A DNA stretch of 39,146 bases from Bacteroidota bacterium (GTDB lineage Bacteria; Bacteroidota; Ignavibacteria; SZUA-365). Of the stretch, positions 8,092 through 14,512 are shown one piece after another. The position numbers and the translations under genes were made by a program. The notes beneath the pieces are model-generated. The model saw only the letters and a program-made list of their open reading frames with translations, did no database searches and had not been told where the DNA came from. The stretch lies in NCBI GenBank assembly GCA_029907355.1, contig JARYLZ010000022.1, positions 1 to 39,146 of the forward strand. The letters run 5' to 3'. Each line of letters opens with the position of its first letter. Within the stretch, counting starts at the first letter, position 1.

Positions 8092-8798
8092 TTCCCGGGC
8101 GTTTCCGTAGCCCGTTGTCTCTGCCCCAGCACCGCATCAACGAGGGCGATATCTTCGGGCGTGGTGATCTTGATATTGGCGGCATCACCCGGCACGAGTG
8201 CAACCTCGATGCCCAACCGTTCGAGAAGTTCGACGTCGTCCGTCCCGCAGTACCCGTCCCGTTCCGCCGTGTCGAATGCCTTTCTCCACAATCCTGCTCG
8301 AGCGCCCTGAGGCGTTTGTGCAAGCCAAATTTCAGAACGGTCCAGGGTGGTGAGGACCCGTCCACCCTGAGCGCGTTTGATCGTGTCCCGCGCATGCAGA
8401 GCGAGAAGCGCCGCGCCTACCTCCTGAACGGCACGAGCGACCGCCCGGACATGGGCGGGATTCACACAGGGGCGGACTGCGTCATGAAAAAGAACGACCG
8501 TTTCATCGTCACCGCAAAGAGGGAGCATGGCGGCGGCCGAGTCCTGCCTCCTCGGACCGCCGTTCACGATCGCATCCACCTTCGTTAATGCATATCGCCG
8601 GATGATATTCTCGACGCGCTTCCGATCATTTACGGCAAGAATGATTCGCGTGCATTCCGGTATCCCCTGAAAGACCGACAGGGTCAGCGCAAGAACCGGT
8701 ACGCCTCTGATTTCGATGAATTGCTTCGGGAGAGCCCCTCCGAATCTTTTACCTCCCCCGGCGGCGGGAACACAAACGACGAATGGTGGGGGATTCAT
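8088..8798 (-). CDS. ispD: 2-C-methyl-D-erythritol 4-phosphate cytidylyltransferase
   Basis: IspD joins MEP and CTP to form CDP-ME, the third step of the non-mevalonate isoprenoid pathway, in the cytoplasm. The 236-residue protein has the full family signature: the CTP-binding loop PAAGGGKRFGGALPKQF near residue 11, LFHDAVRPCV (~residue 103), QTPQGAR (~161), GTDDVELLERLG and the final GDAANIKITTPEDI. The length is normal for the family. It sits 52 bp downstream of queA and overlaps rsmI by four bases (ATGA), so all three are probably one transcript. Nothing in the motifs suggests loss of activity. Confidence 0.95.
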   Translation of the reverse strand: MNPPPFVVCVPAAGGGKRFGGALPKQFIEIRGVPVLALTLSVFQGIPECTRIILAVNDRKRVENIIRRYALTKVDAIVNGGPRRQDSAAAMLPLCGDDETVVLFHDAVRPCVNPAHVRAVARAVQEVGAALLALHARDTIKRAQGGRVLTTLDRSEIWLAQTPQGARAGLWRKAFDTAERDGYCGTDDVELLERLGIEVALVPGDAANIKITTPEDIALVDAVLGQRQRATETPGK

Positions 8799-8850
8799 GA
8801 ATCTCGGGTGTACGGCTGCCTACCGAACGGAGAGGCGGCGGCCGACCGAT

Positions 8851-9885
8851 TCAAAGGATCAGCATCGCGTCACCGTAGCTGAACAGCCGGTATTTCTCCT
8901 TTATCGCTTTCTTGTACGCTTTCATGGCGAGATCGTAGCCCGCGAAAGCGGCCACCAACATGAGGAGTGTCGATTTCGGCATGTGAAAGTTCGTGATCAG
9001 CTTGTCGGTGATCTTGAAATCATACGGTGGGTATATGAACTTGTCGGTCCATGTGCGGGCGGGGGAAAGCTTGCGCATCGTGGTGACGCTGGACTCGAGG
9101 GCACGCACCGTGCTGGTCCCGCAGACGAATACGCTCCGCTTGATGTCCTTCGTGTGATTGACCGCCATGCACGCGGCGGGCGGGATCTCGAAATACTCCG
9201 AATCCATTTTATGTTTGGTGAGGTCTTCCACCTCGACCGGCCGGAAGGTCCCCTGCCCGATATGGAGGAGTACCGTCGTGATCGTCACGCCTTTCTTCTT
9301 CAGTTTGCTCAACAGCGGCTTCGTGAAATGGAGACCGGCGGTCGGAGCGGCGACGGCACCCACCGTCTTCGCGAAAACGGTCTGATACCATTCCTTGTCG
9401 GCTTCCACGGCCTCGCGCTTAATGTAAGGGGGGAGAGGCGTCTGCCCGACAGCGTCGATCAGTTTGAAGAAATCCCCTTCGTAATTGAAACGCACTGTCC
9501 TTCCGCGCGAGGTCGTATTGTCGATGACCTCGCACATGAGATCGTCTGAAAAATAGATCTTGTTCCCGATCCTTACTTTCCGTGCAGGATCCACAATCAC
9601 GTCCCATAAGTGCTCGTCCTTGCTCAGCTCCCGAAGGAGGAACACTTCGATCTTCGCGTTCGTTTTTTCTTTCCTACCGATCAAACGCGCCGGGAAGACC
9701 TTTGTCTCATTGAGCACGAGACAATCGCCTTTCTTGAAGTACTCGGGGATATCGCTGAAAATCCTGTGCTCGATTTCTCCCGTCGCACGATCGACAACCA
9801 TGAGACGCGCGCTGTCTCTGGGCTGGGCAGGGTATTTCGCAATAAGAGTCTTAACGAGGGGGTAATCGAAATCGGATAATTTCAT
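8851..9885 (-). CDS. queA: S-adenosylmethionine:tRNA ribosyltransferase-isomerase
   Basis: QueA transfers and isomerises the ribosyl group of SAM onto preQ1-modified tRNA to give epoxyqueuosine, the penultimate queuosine step. The 344-residue length matches the family. Landmarks are [19 protein letters not shown] at the N-terminus, [16 protein letters not shown], the core [13 protein letters not shown] (~residue 178), [27 protein letters not shown] and the ending [10 protein letters not shown]. It is the first gene of the queA-ispD-rsmI operon, and its upstream side faces the 457-bp AT-rich region shared with buk. A second queuosine-pathway gene, queD, lies at 36908-37357 but is not linked to it. 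Confidence 0.96.
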
Positions 9886-10342
9886 ATCGAGTGTCTAAGC
9901 CGGTGGTATACCGCCATGTTTTTATTATTCAAGATTTTACCTCGTCTCCCTGATCATCCATCTTCGATAGAATTTCTTTCCCCTTTCTTTCTACATTTCA
10001 CGAAAACGGGGAGCCGATAAAGCCCCTGAAACAAAAGAAATGGAAGCGGTTGCCCGGTCTTCCATAAATAACATCTGCAAAAATACGTTTTTTTTCAGGG
10101 GGTGTCAATGAAAACATTGTGCAACATGGTATTGAAAAATTCGCACAATGTTCGACCCGACGTCGAATCCCTGGCCATGTGGGTATTTGGAGGGGGAAAG
10201 CCCGCTCTTACCCTCCTGAATGACAGGGTTATTCTTGATGTTCGGTTCTGTTCTTTGTAGCTTTTTATCGTCGGGTTTTTCCATTCTCCTTCCGAAATCG
10301 GATTCCTTCTATACGAATACGCACCATTCGCCGGAGCCGTCC
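9886..10342. other. 457-bp AT-rich divergent intergenic region between queA and buk
   Basis: This is noticeably richer in A and T than the flanking genes and must hold the promoters of both queA (-) and buk (+). It contains a near-palindrome at 9902-9915 in the queA leader, an 8-T run at 10088-10095, a perfect 10-bp inverted repeat at 10113-10122/10143-10152, a 6-bp inverted repeat at 10151-10156/10162-10167 and a GGAGGG/CCCTCC pair at 10189-10194/10211-10216. I could not pick a convincing TAnnTTTG promoter for buk; TATTCTTG near 10230 is a one-mismatch match without a clear -33 partner. The frame of buk stays open from 10220, but that extension reads as non-coding. Confidence 0.6.
10113..10152. 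promoter_or_regulatory. Perfect 10-bp inverted repeat upstream of buk (possible operator or leader hairpin)
   Basis: AACATTGTGC (10113-10122) is repeated inverted as GCACAATGTT (10143-10152) with a 20-nt spacer, so the arm centres are 30 bp apart, close to three helical turns. A second inverted repeat, TTCGAC/GTCGAA (10151-10156/10162-10167), overlaps the right arm by two bases. The site lies about 190 bp before the buk start and 230 bp before the queA start, so either side could be controlled. Confidence 0.4.
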
Positions 10343-11401
10343 ATGCCGAAGAAATCATTTCACATCCTCGTGATCAACCCGGGTTCAACCTCGACGAAAA
10401 TCGCCGTGTATCGGGACGACAAACTGATCCATCAAGCGGACGTTCAACACCCTCCGTCGGCCGGTTCGATATGGGACGAGTTCGACAACCGCTTGGTACA
10501 GATCCGCGCTATGCTCAAGGATTTATCTCTGGACACTCCGATCGACGCTGTTGCGGGCAGAGGCGGACTCCTCAAACCGATCGAGGGTGGCACGTACACC
10601 GTCAACGAGGCGATGCTGGCGGATGCACGGGCGAATCTTCAGGGCGAGCATGCGGCGAATTTAGGCTGTGCATTCGCGGATGCCCTTGCACGCGAGTTGA
10701 ACGCGCCCGCGTTCGTCGTCGACCCTGTCAGCGTGGACGAGTTCGAGCCGCTCGCTCGCTATTCCGGTCATCCCGACATTCGACGCCGCGCTCTGGCTCA
10801 TACGCTGAACATGCATGCCGTCGCCCGCGCCGCCGCTGCGAAACTCAAGATCCCGTACAAGAAGAGCTCCTTCGTCGTCGCCCATCTCGGCGGTGGCGTA
10901 TCGATAAGTCCCCTGAAAGGAGGCCGCATCATCGATGCAAACGATGCGTCGAGCAACGGCCCCTTCACGCCGGAACGAACCGGAACGCTCCCGCTCCAGC
11001 CATTCATCAAAATGTGTTTCTCCGGGAAATACACCGAATCCGATATGCGCAAACTCGTCATGGGGAAAGGGGGCCTTGTCGCGTATCTCGGGACGAACGA
11101 CATGCGGGAAATCGAGAGACGGATTACGGAAGGGGATTCCTATGCCGCCGAGGTCGTGCAGGCGATGTGCTACCAAATCGCGAAAGAAATCGGCGCGATG
11201 GCGACCGTCCTTTTCGGGAAAGTCCACGCCATCCTCATGACGGGCGGTCTCACCCACTCGAGACTCATTTACAAGAGTGTCAAGAAACGCGTGTCGTGGA
11301 TCGCCCCCGTCATGAATTTCGCCGGTGAACACGAGATGCTCGCCCTCGCTCTTGGTACGCTACGCGTGTTGCGCGGCGAAGAGCGCCCGCGGACGTACTG
11401 A
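10343..11401 (+). CDS. buk: Butyrate kinase (acyl kinase of the acetokinase family)
   Basis: Buk converts butyryl-phosphate, or branched/aromatic acyl-phosphates, plus ADP to the free acid plus ATP. I chose ATG 10343 because the protein then starts MPKKSFHILVINPGSTSTKI, the normal beginning of the ASKHA-fold kinase, with GGAG six bases upstream. The 352-residue length fits the family. Landmarks are INPGSTSTKIAVY (phosphate-binding loop), GRGGLLKPIEGGTY, GEHAANLGC, AHTLNMHAVAR, VVAHLGGGVSI (~residue 180), GPFTPERTGTLP, GKGGLVAYLGTND and ILMTGGLTHS. It leads a same-strand group with an IorA-like gene 65 bp downstream and the IorB::Ptb fusion after that. Its presumed acyl-phosphate supplier is therefore encoded two genes later. 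Confidence 0.95.
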   Translation: MPKKSFHILVINPGSTSTKIAVYRDDKLIHQADVQHPPSAGSIWDEFDNRLVQIRAMLKDLSLDTPIDAVAGRGGLLKPIEGGTYTVNEAMLADARANLQGEHAANLGCAFADALARELNAPAFVVDPVSVDEFEPLARYSGHPDIRRRALAHTLNMHAVARAAAAKLKIPYKKSSFVVAHLGGGVSISPLKGGRIIDANDASSNGPFTPERTGTLPLQPFIKMCFSGKYTESDMRKLVMGKGGLVAYLGTNDMREIERRITEGDSYAAEVVQAMCYQIAKEIGAMATVLFGKVHAILMTGGLTHSRLIYKSVKKRVSWIAPVMNFAGEHEMLALALGTLRVLRGEERPRTY

Positions 11402-11466: not shown

Positions 11467-12900
11467 ATGAACACTCATCCTACTCTCTCCGGAATCGAAG
11501 CGACCGTTCGTGGAGCTTGGTCAGCGGGTGCAGGCTACGTCGTAGAGTACGTCTACCGCAACGCCGTAACGTTATCCACGAAACCGCCGCTCGATGACGG
11601 GTTCAGCATACTCCGTGCACCCGACGCCGTTTCATGCGTCGAAACGGCTGTCGGCATCGCAGAGGGGGGAGTCCGCGCACTCGCGCTCATCAACCGACGG
11701 GGGATCCAAAGCGCCATCGATGCTCTCGCCGATGCGGCCGGCGCCGTCTTCCAAGCGGGACTCGTCGTTGCAGTGATCGAGGATGAACCTGCGAGTGCGC
11801 TCGTCGCGGATCCCCGTCCCCTGCTTCGCGCCGCCAGGATCCCTATCCTTGAACCCGCGGGGCCTGTCGAGGTTCTCTCGTATGTCGACCAAGCTTTTCG
11901 GCTTTCGGAACAGTTCACTATCCCCATCACAGTGCATGTCACCCGCTCGGTGATCGATACCTGTGCCGTGTGCTCTGTGCCTGAACGTCGTACGACATCG
12001 AAGAAGGGCATCTCGACCTTCCCGGCCGAGCGTCGAACCGGCCCGTCCGCCATTGCGGACATCGAGCGCAGGATCGCCGCCGTCGAAACGTTCGCGAACC
12101 AGTCGTTCGATCTCAATGCCGTCGACGCCTGTTCTCCGGACGTCGGCATCATCGCGGCAGGCATTGCTTACCGATACGCAAAGGAAGTCCTCCCGACAGC
12201 TTCGTTTCTCAAGCTCGGCGTCGTTCATCCACTGCCACGAAAGATGGTCTCCTATTTCACCGGTTTCGTGAAACGCCTCTACGTCATCGAAGACGGCGAA
12301 CCGTTCATCGAGGAACAACTCCGCGCCGCTGGGTTCCCCGTCTCCGGTCGAGATGTATTCCCTCACGCCGGGGAATTGTCCCTCGAAACCGTCGCGAAGG
12401 GACTCGCCTCGGAAGGGGCATTTCAACCTGCCATTTCTATTGAGCCTTTGACCGTGGAAGCGTCCCGTCACGGGGAACCTACGAATCCGGCGTACCGCTC
12501 TCTCCTGAGTGCGCTTCGGAATTCCAGTGTCCGCATCATGGGATTTCCCGAAAACACTCACACATTGCAGCTCGCTGCCGAATACGGCTTCGCGCGCGCA
12601 CGGGGCAAAGGACCGGAAACCCCGGCGGCTATGGTCATCCCTACACCCTCGCGGTTCCTCGCGCACCTTGCGGTCATCACCGACCTCACGACCGCGGACA
12701 TTCCCCTTATCGCCTGCATCATCGACTGTGCGGGGACCGACTTGCCTACACGGGAAGGAATCGATATCCGCAAGCTCTGCGAAGGCATCGGTATATCGCA
12801 TGTCTCAGAAGTGCCCCTCGCGGACGAACGGGCGATCACGGAAGCAGTGACCGCAGCATGCAACATTCGGGGCATTTCCGTAATCCGCCTCGTCGGGTGA
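11467..12900 (+). CDS. IorA-like protein (indolepyruvate:ferredoxin oxidoreductase alpha homologue) lacking Fe-S domain and TPP motifs
   Basis: The 477 residues follow the order of IorA: an N-terminal pyrimidine-side domain (~8-165, with the recognisable IPILEPAGPVEVLSYVDQAFRLSEQFTIPITVHVTR), a middle domain (~225-315: IIAAGIAYRYAKEVLP, LKLGVVHPLPRKM, RLYVIEDGEPFIEEQL, GRDVFPHAGELS) and a C-terminal region (~338-477) aligning with the TPP domain. Key elements are missing. The YPGTPS-type motif is absent. The NEKVALE segment is PDAVSCVE (52-59). CPGCPHR is TNPAYR (339-344). GDS is TPS (393-395), and the DNRTTAMTG-type motif is DCAGTD (420-425). The final two-cluster ferredoxin domain is absent, where IorA is usually ~600 residues. 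Cys166 and Cys169 form an isolated CxxC. Oxidoreductase activity therefore looks unlikely. Its place between buk and the IorB::Ptb fusion suggests a structural or regulatory role, or a changed chemistry. The homology is a motif-level judgement. Confidence 0.75.
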   Translation: MNTHPTLSGIEATVRGAWSAGAGYVVEYVYRNAVTLSTKPPLDDGFSILRAPDAVSCVETAVGIAEGGVRALALINRRGIQSAIDALADAAGAVFQAGLVVAVIEDEPASALVADPRPLLRAARIPILEPAGPVEVLSYVDQAFRLSEQFTIPITVHVTRSVIDTCAVCSVPERRTTSKKGISTFPAERRTGPSAIADIERRIAAVETFANQSFDLNAVDACSPDVGIIAAGIAYRYAKEVLPTASFLKLGVVHPLPRKMVSYFTGFVKRLYVIEDGEPFIEEQLRAAGFPVSGRDVFPHAGELSLETVAKGLASEGAFQPAISIEPLTVEASRHGEPTNPAYRSLLSALRNSSVRIMGFPENTHTLQLAAEYGFARARGKGPETPAAMVIPTPSRFLAHLAVITDLTTADIPLIACIIDCAGTDLPTREGIDIRKLCEGIGISHVSEVPLADERAITEAVTAACNIRGISVIRLVG

Positions 12901-12967: not shown

Positions 12968-14512
12968 ATGAAATCAGCCAATGCCATATTCTGCGGTGCG
13001 GAAAACGGGGCTCTGCTGAAGGCGTCGGAACTCCTCTGTCTCGCAGCGGACCATGCAGGGTACGATGCCGTCATGCATATTGAGAGAGGGCAAGAGGATG
13101 GGCGTGTTTCGTGCCATATCCGTTGGGGCGAAAAAATTTGGTCTCCCCTGATTCCTGCGGGTCAAGCCGACATGCTCCTTTCGCTTGACCTCCGCGAAAC
13201 GCTTCTCCTCCTACCGATGTTGCGGCCCGGTGGGACGATCATCATCGACGGGAACGCTTTAGCCGGATCCGATATCGGGTTGACCGGCATGTTCGCTTCG
13301 GCCGTCGATCGGCTCGGTTGCGCCGTGCACAAAGTGCCTGCCGCCTTTTGCGCCGAGGACCCTGCTCTTGCCCCCGCATCTCTCGCCGGGGTCGCAGCTT
13401 CCTTTCTGCCCTGGCCCGATGACGTTTGGCGACGTACATTCGACGCGCTCGGCGATCATGCCCCGGCATCGGTGCGTGATGCATTCCACAAGGGGAAATC
13501 ATACGAAGCGGAGACCCTGCGATTCGATATTTCCCCCCGTTTCTCCCCGCCGCTTGGTCCGACCGACAAAGGTATCCGAACATTCGACGAAATGCTCGAG
13601 CGGGTTCGATCCCTCCCCCCGCGACGCGTGTGTATAGCGGGAGCGGAAAACCGAGCCGCTCTCCATGCCGGCATCGAATGTGTCGAACGGGGCCTGGGGA
13701 CTCCCGTTTTCGTCGGGAACCGCGAGACCATTCTCTCGGCGGCTCGGGAAGCTTTCGTCGACTTTCCGATCGGGGACTATGAAATCATTTCCACGGCATC
13801 GGAACAGGAGACGGCAGAGCAAGCCGTCGCCGTGGTGCGGGAAGGGCGCGCCGACATCCTCCTGAAAGGGGGGGTGAACACGCCCACGCTCATGCGAGCC
13901 GTTCTCCATGCGACGAAAGGGCTCCGAAGCGGGAGTCTATTGAGCGACTCGTTCGTCTTCGAGTTCCCCGACGAAGACGGGACGCGCCTCGTCATGATCA
14001 CCGACGGCGGCGTCACGCTTCAACCCACGATTCAGCAGAAAATCCAAATTCTCCGGAATGCCGTGGTCGTTGCCCACGCGCTGGGAAATGCGATGCCGCG
14101 TGTGGCTCTTCTCGCCGCTTCCGAAACGATCAACCCGGCCCTTGCCGCCACCATGGACGCGGCAGCCATCACGAGCATGAACCGCTCGGGCCAGATTACG
14201 GGATGTATCGTGGAAGGGCCGATGGCGCTCGACGTGGCCGTCAGCCGGAAAGCGGCTGCGATCAAAGGCACCGACTCACCGGTCGCCGGCCAAGCCGACA
14301 TACTCGTCGCCGCCTCCATCGACACGGCGAACGCCCTTGCCAAGAGCACCACTTATTTCGCAGGCTACCGGCTCTCCCATGTCATCGTGGGCGGCACGGC
14401 ACCGATCCTGATCGCGTCACGTTCCGATACGGCGGATGCGAAGCTGCTCTCCATCGCCCTCGGCAGCCTCATGGCGAGACACTTCGAGGAGCAACGCGCG
14501 CAAGCCGGGTGA
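12968..14512 (+). CDS. Fusion protein: IorB-like (2-oxoacid oxidoreductase gamma) domain + phosphate butyryltransferase
   Basis: A single 514-residue frame with two parts. Residues 1-185 follow IorB: AENGALLKASELLCLAADHA, HIRWGEKIWSPLIPAGQADM, LLLLPMLRPGGTIIIDG and a closing SVRDAFHKGKSYE, which matches the IorB-type end. The usual GVGGQG loop is CGAENG (9-14) and the GMSQRGG loop is GQEDGR, so nucleotide or TPP contacts are probably lost. Residues ~203-514 are a well-conserved phosphate butyryltransferase: FDEMLERVRSL, ADILLKGGVNTPTLMRAVL, MITDGGVTLQPTIQQKIQIL, RSGQITGCIVEGPMALDVAV, VAGQADILVAASIDTANAL and SRSDTADAKLLSIALGSLM. Ptb turns acyl-CoA and phosphate into acyl-phosphate, the Buk substrate. 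The join lies in a Pro-rich segment (~188-202) with no stop or frameshift. The gene begins 67 bp after the IorA-like gene. Ptb activity is very likely; the role of the N-terminal part is unknown. Confidence 0.85.
   Translation: MKSANAIFCGAENGALLKASELLCLAADHAGYDAVMHIERGQEDGRVSCHIRWGEKIWSPLIPAGQADMLLSLDLRETLLLLPMLRPGGTIIIDGNALAGSDIGLTGMFASAVDRLGCAVHKVPAAFCAEDPALAPASLAGVAASFLPWPDDVWRRTFDALGDHAPASVRDAFHKGKSYEAETLRFDISPRFSPPLGPTDKGIRTFDEMLERVRSLPPRRVCIAGAENRAALHAGIECVERGLGTPVFVGNRETILSAAREAFVDFPIGDYEIISTASEQETAEQAVAVVREGRADILLKGGVNTPTLMRAVLHATKGLRSGSLLSDSFVFEFPDEDGTRLVMITDGGVTLQPTIQQKIQILRNAVVVAHALGNAMPRVALLAASETINPALAATMDAAAITSMNRSGQITGCIVEGPMALDVAVSRKAAAIKGTDSPVAGQADILVAASIDTANALAKSTTYFAGYRLSHVIVGGTAPILIASRSDTADAKLLSIALGSLMARHFEEQRAQAG

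Follow-up and report, generated by a model that had tools for sequence, protein, structure and literature searches.

An IorB-type/phosphate butyryltransferase fusion beside a motif-less IorA-like protein in a Bacteroidota bacterium

We confirm that the window, by which we mean the whole 39,146-nucleotide stretch of DNA analysed here (contig JARYLZ010000022.1), encodes a genuine fusion of an IorB-type domain with phosphate butyryltransferase (Ptb). The gene is the last of three on the same strand, in the order buk (butyrate kinase), iorA-like and iorB-ptb, with gaps of 65 and 67 bases between them. In the reading that we favour, with rather more belief than doubt and from sequence comparison, Ptb and Buk would generate ATP from acyl-CoA on a pseudo-OFOR, a redox-dead former 2-oxo acid oxidoreductase retained for assembly or regulation. 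All the parts are known families. In the open-access papers searched we found no publication describing an IorB-Ptb fusion or a pseudo-OFOR kept with Ptb, in agreement with the first-pass annotation of this DNA, which knew of no protein with this architecture.

Architecture of the fusion protein

The fusion is encoded in a single frame of 514 codons with zero internal stops, as claimed in the first-pass annotation, and the profile searches proposed there for its two parts uphold the assigned domain identities. Pfam POR (PF01558) matches residues 18-130 with 39.6 bits, above its cut-off of 27.4 (E 7.8e-10), and PTA_PTB (PF01515) matches residues 281-498 with 136.5 bits against a cut-off of 24 (E 1.7e-39). 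NCBIfam places Ptb at residues 203-505 (E 3e-92) and indolepyruvate oxidoreductase beta at residues 2-177 (E 3e-18), in both cases below the curated cut-offs; the best NCBIfam score of the IorB domain is 66 bits, against an equivalog cut-off of 237.

The AlphaFold model, computed from the window protein and its relatives in the fetched loci, has a mean pLDDT of 92.2 and consists of two domains with a loop at about residues 181-200 (Table 1). When this model was compared with the PDB, residues 1-189 were found to resemble OFOR gamma chains (3g2e, Z 19.8, rmsd 2.4 over 171; 3on3, Z 19.7; 6ciq, Z 18.0), and residues 200-506 the Ptb of C. acetobutylicum (7vg9, Z 41.6). The three stretches first taken as IorB landmarks are all present, but they are not diagnostic IorB motifs, and the motifs GVGGQG and HGMxQRGG have been lost: GAENGA is found where GVGGQG is expected, and HGMxQRGG is replaced.

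Table 1. Features of the buk, iorA-like and iorB-ptb genes in the window
Feature	Position	Strand	Evidence
Butyrate kinase (Buk, P0003)	10343..11401	+	NCBIfam butyrate kinase 460 bits, cut-off 222, match from residue 47
IorA-like protein (P0002), 477 aa, pseudo-OFOR alpha	11467..12900	+	IOR_alpha match only over 51-325; motif table; model and OFOR matches
IorA-like domain II, residues about 216-312	12112..12402	+	64% identity to G001 vs 29% elsewhere; branch length 0.54
TPP pyrophosphate-binding domain remnant (domain VI), residues about 346-477	12502..12897	+	Aligned to PFOR through 477; GDIGCY, GDS, DNxTAMTG absent
IorB-like domain/phosphate butyryltransferase fusion (P0001)	12968..14512	+	514 aa; ORF, Pfam, NCBIfam, AlphaFold model, fold matches
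OFOR gamma/IorB-type domain, residues 1-185	12968..13522	+	Pfam POR E 7.8e-10; OorC 3g2e Z 19.8; GVGGQG and HGMxQRGG lost
Inter-domain linker, residues about 186-202	13523..13573	+	Low-confidence loop, pLDDT 63-64 around residues 181-200
Phosphate butyryltransferase domain, residues 203-506	13574..14485	+	NCBIfam E 3e-92; 7vg9 Z 41.6; D422, K433, N455, K459, S484, R485, D487 kept

Conservation of the Ptb domain and Buk

The C. acetobutylicum enzyme (7vg9) is 38% identical to the window domain, matches it over the whole Ptb domain and shares its active-site residues; unlike the window fusion, it has no N-terminal oxidoreductase domain. When the active-site residues of CaPTB (PMC9706017) were mapped onto the window Ptb domain, Asp217, Lys228, Asn250, Lys254, Ser279, Arg280 and Asp282 were found as D422, K433, N455, K459, S484, R485 and D487, while Ser283, Glu285 and Lys186 are substituted by Thr488, Asp490 and Ala391. 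The domain falls below the NCBIfam equivalog cut-offs for Ptb (TIGR02706, 292 bits against 410; NF004472, 309 against 399), and its butyryl specificity is therefore putative.

A second NCBIfam butyrate kinase profile also matches Buk, with 437 bits against a cut-off of 289. The longest Buk reading frame, 10220-11401, has about 41 surplus N-terminal residues; since the family match begins only at residue 47, the start is probably Met42 of that frame, at position 10343. Judged by sequence, both Ptb and Buk are intact, and together they probably still turn acyl-CoA into acid and ATP.

Distribution and origin of the fusion

A search of related genomes for the same architecture, as the first-pass annotation had recommended, returned five further full-length fusions, which brings the total to six genomes: that of the window, G001 (same family), G012, G013 and G014 (same order) and G022 (same class). 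The five proteins are 45-65% identical to the window protein (G001, 65%), and four of the fusions are carried on contigs PABJ01000021, JAJRXL010000223, JAADGX010000234 and PEWR01000039 (Ignavibacteriales). No further fusion was found in the genomes searched, which numbered 391 from the class, 395 from the phylum and, for an Acidobacteria locus, 297 from its phylum. PABJ01000021.1 (L101) is labelled Ectothiorhodospiraceae, probably in error, as its matching genome, G012, sits in the window's order.

In a tree of 74 Ptb domains, the six fused domains form one starred clade and, on the strength of this clade, the iorB-ptb fusion arose once, in one Bacteroidota-type class. The upstream neighbours queA and ispD, named from sequence by inspection, are common to the window, G001 and G014, which suggests that the fusion locus was inherited vertically in these three. 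In G022 (L043) a gene that looks DUF1573-type by inspection (8657-9406, minus strand) lies between iorA and the fusion.

An assembly error is excluded by the full-length fusion in five other genomes. The broader idea that a misassembly or a missed stop has joined two genes could draw on the fragmented state of the genome (173 contigs) and on G730, where stops separate iorB and ptb within a single matched stretch, but we give it practically no credence, as six assemblies carry the fusion in one clade at 45-65% identity to the window and the queA and ispD neighbours recur in G001 and G014.

Unfused loci were collected by a contig scan with two peptide patterns, which was non-exhaustive. The genes buk, iorA, iorB and ptb are found separate and in identical order in Acidobacteria, Zixibacteria, Aminicenantes and Thermoanaerobaculum loci, a conserved operon that bears out the consecutive-step logic first proposed for IorB and Ptb; in KSB1, Caldithrix and BMS3Bbin03 loci, iorB directly precedes ptb. 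At most unfused loci ptb has a candidate start 8 to 20 bases upstream of the iorB end, in a different frame. By this comparison, the source of the fusion can be traced to adjacent iorB and ptb genes, mostly overlapping, and a small frame change across the overlap probably made it.

In G730 (two TGA) and G693 (two TAA), iorB and ptb were matched in one stretch that is interrupted by stops. A BMS3Bbin03 locus (L105, 3328-5091) has a near-fusion look: iorB and ptb share a frame, and only stop codons and about 80 bases of spacer come between them. Tandem copies also occur: in L167 (2337-8894), iorA-iorB precede a tandem array of two genes for butyrate kinase and two ptb-like ones, and L170 (6821-8793) has two tandem ptb-like genes; the tandem ptb copies of both loci are long branches in the Ptb tree.

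Loss of oxidoreductase motifs

In the OFOR of S. tokodaii, Mg is bound near TPP by an Asn together with a Gly-Asp-Gly motif, TPP is activated by a Glu, and activity depends on YPITP (PMC5020499). We read the IorA motifs, from our alignment, as the likely counterparts of these. In G013, G014 and G022 the full set is present: YPGTP, NEK with the catalytic Glu, CPGC, GDIGCYTLG, GDSTF, DNxTAMTG and two ferredoxin clusters in IorA, and GVGGQG and HGMxQRGG in IorB. In G001 and G012, SGS replaces GDS, and the DNxTAMTG loop, the ferredoxin domain and HGMxQRGG have been lost. The window has additionally lost YPGTP, NEK, CPGC, GDIGCY and GVGGQG, so that its IorA-like protein aligns without ferredoxin clusters, Mg/TPP motifs, YPGTP or catalytic Glu; YPGTP has become YRNAV, NEK has become DAV, and CPGC and GDIGCY are gone. 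Because G001 and G012 share the SGS replacement and the loop, ferredoxin-domain and HGMxQRGG losses, erosion of the OFOR most likely began in the common ancestor of these two and the window.

The profile and model data for the window IorA-like protein were examined as well. It has no Pfam match, and its IOR_alpha score in NCBIfam is 136 bits against a cut-off of 651. In its model, residues 323-338 and about 361-374 have pLDDT values under 50, as expected of decay. From these motifs, none of the window, G001 and G012 IorA/IorB proteins should be a 2-oxo acid oxidoreductase, and the window protein very probably cannot oxidise 2-oxo acids.

These losses bear on the function proposed in the first-pass annotation, in which Ptb is tied to an active OFOR that hands acyl-CoA directly over to it. 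Such channelling would agree with the consecutive steps and the conserved operon, and every OFOR motif is indeed found beside the fused protein in G013, G014 and G022, the fusions for which it is plausible. For the window, however, we consider it highly improbable that a working IorA-IorB partner channels acyl-CoA: GDS, DNxTAMTG and both ferredoxin clusters are gone there as in G001 and G012, and the catalytic Glu, YPGTP and CPGC are missing in addition.

Elsewhere in the window's genome lies a second IorAB (G000:C84:6702-8851) with intact TPP motifs and no C-terminal ferredoxin domain. The same type is also found in G001 (L176) and G012 (L175).

Rates and residual constraint in the motif-less half

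On a fixed topology, the terminal branch of the window measures 0.22 for Buk and 0.16 for Ptb, versus 2.12 for IorA and 1.64 for IorB; the rate in the latter two is roughly ten times that of Ptb. This tenfold difference, the loss of every cofactor motif and the low-confidence C-terminal half of the IorA-like model would all suit a functionless OFOR half, with the IorB domain persisting merely as the upstream in-frame part of Ptb. The IorA-like gene would then either be heading for loss or survive, by a neutral ratchet, solely to shield an exposed surface of IorB. We regard this passenger reading as unlikely; in its ratchet form it is the main rival to our reading, and the faster evolution also fits a slow loss of function.

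Several observations speak against simple decay. The IorA proteins of G001 and G012 are 59% identical, and their differences at the three codon positions (0.35/0.24/0.66) resemble those between G014 and G022, the intact pair (0.33/0.21/0.65), which means that constraint on IorA persisted after the active site was lost. Some constraint is still visible between the window and G001 (0.49/0.39/0.66). The sequences behind these values are few, and the window has no close relative; third positions are nearly saturated, which is why codon-position differences are given rather than dN/dS. In addition, the IorA-like reading frame is open in the window, G001 and G012, and codon usage in the window is normal, favouring the true frame throughout.

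The remaining conservation is unevenly spread over IorA, whose domain limits are our own, drawn from the alignment and the model. Domain II is 81% identical between G001 and G012 and 64% between the window and G001, versus 54% and 29% elsewhere in the protein, and in the intact pair the values are 64% and 61%. Its branch length is 0.54, versus 1.98 for domain I and 3.0 for domain VI. The odds ratio of identity in domain II versus the catalytic domains is 3.4-4.5 for motif-less pairs and 0.45-0.85 for intact pairs (z 3.7 and 4.8), a contrast that assumes independent sites and was chosen after the result of a circular-shift test had been seen. In that test the conservation of domain II did not stand out, with values as high in 71 of 457 shifts, because the adjacent linker also rises and evolves differently. 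In OFOR structures the dimer interface is made by domains I, II and VI, and domain III (gamma) lies outside it as a wing (PMC5020499). Domain II is now more conserved than in intact enzymes, which speaks against a mere passenger; the data lend support, short of proof, to a shift of constraint onto this dimer-interface domain while the catalytic domains dissolve. The pattern fits a protein that keeps an assembly module and drops its chemistry.

Selective conservation within one domain could also point to a metabolite sensor: the pseudo-OFOR half would regulate Ptb allosterically on binding a 2-oxo acid, CoA or an acyl-CoA. Allosteric control was the alternative to channelling offered in the first-pass annotation, and it may still apply. 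That this transferase fold can be combined with a second enzyme for regulatory purposes has a precedent in the hybrid malic enzyme MaeB (PMC7902834), in which a metabolic enzyme is likewise joined to a Pta/Ptb-fold domain. MaeB chains are among the fold matches of the fusion model, and the OFOR gamma-type domain matches the CoA-bound PFOR chain 6ciq. The window protein would, however, be a mirror image, since MaeB senses through its PTA domain and has an active N-terminal enzyme, whereas in the window protein it is Ptb that seems active and the N-terminal part that seems dead. We think a sensor quite unlikely, given that we identified no ligand site, that the gamma domain has lost its motifs and that conservation is highest in the interface domain.

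Proposed role and relation to known systems

Our preferred reading, ATP formation by Ptb and Buk on a retained pseudo-OFOR, makes the locus a remodelled fermentation operon and starts from separate buk, iorA, iorB and ptb genes, the last two mostly overlapping. Characterised loci suggest by analogy that IorAB would convert an amino-acid-derived 2-oxo acid into acyl-CoA with ferredoxin, Ptb would convert the acyl-CoA into acyl phosphate, and Buk would turn this into ATP and acid. The single fusion would have pinned Ptb to the wing-like gamma domain of OFOR, and in the window's subclade the OFOR half then lost its Fe-S domain and Mg/TPP site. Ptb and Buk would keep the route from acyl-CoA and Pi through acyl phosphate to acid and ATP, with acyl-CoA coming from another source, for which the second IorAB is a candidate. 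The pseudo-IorA/IorB half may provide Ptb with a platform for assembly or regulation; a stable complex of the IorA-like protein with the fusion is assumed here from OFOR structure. A more specific form, that the redox-dead pseudo-OFOR has become indispensable to the fused phosphotransbutyrylase as a partner in assembly or allostery and that unfused, fused-active and fused-dead stages are all extant, is put forward tentatively, our belief in it being slightly short of even.

The closest described systems are amino-acid fermentation loci in which genes for an OFOR (indolepyruvate/2-oxoacid:ferredoxin oxidoreductase IorAB) adjoin Ptb/Buk homologues, an arrangement read as 2-oxo acid oxidation with substrate-level phosphorylation (PMC13285125, PMC13290082). 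The families, the consecutive reactions and the neighbourhood are the same; there, however, the OFOR, Ptb and Buk proteins are separate and the OFOR is active, whereas in the window IorB and Ptb are fused and the OFOR half is without cofactor sites. Compared with OFOR gamma subunits (OorC 3g2e, 3on3; PFOR domain III), whose fold is shared with residues 1-185 (Z 18-20), the window domain has lost the hallmark motifs and bears a C-terminal Ptb. The bifunctional enoyl-CoA hydratase/phosphate acetyltransferase family NF006045 likewise has a Ptb-like domain with an N-terminal partner, and matches residues 204-511 with 279.9 bits (cut-off 282), but its partner is a hydratase-type domain rather than an OFOR gamma domain.

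Taken together, these loci leave the stages still visible, from adjacent genes through a fusion with a motif-intact enzyme to a fusion with a motif-less one. The G013 and G014 proteins permit a direct test of OFOR-to-Ptb channelling, and with those of the window, G001 and G012 one can ask if the dead half of an enzyme is retained because it has a role or is merely entrenched. For genomes of this kind, annotation that goes by the presence of IorA and IorB would wrongly predict 2-oxo acid oxidation at the locus.
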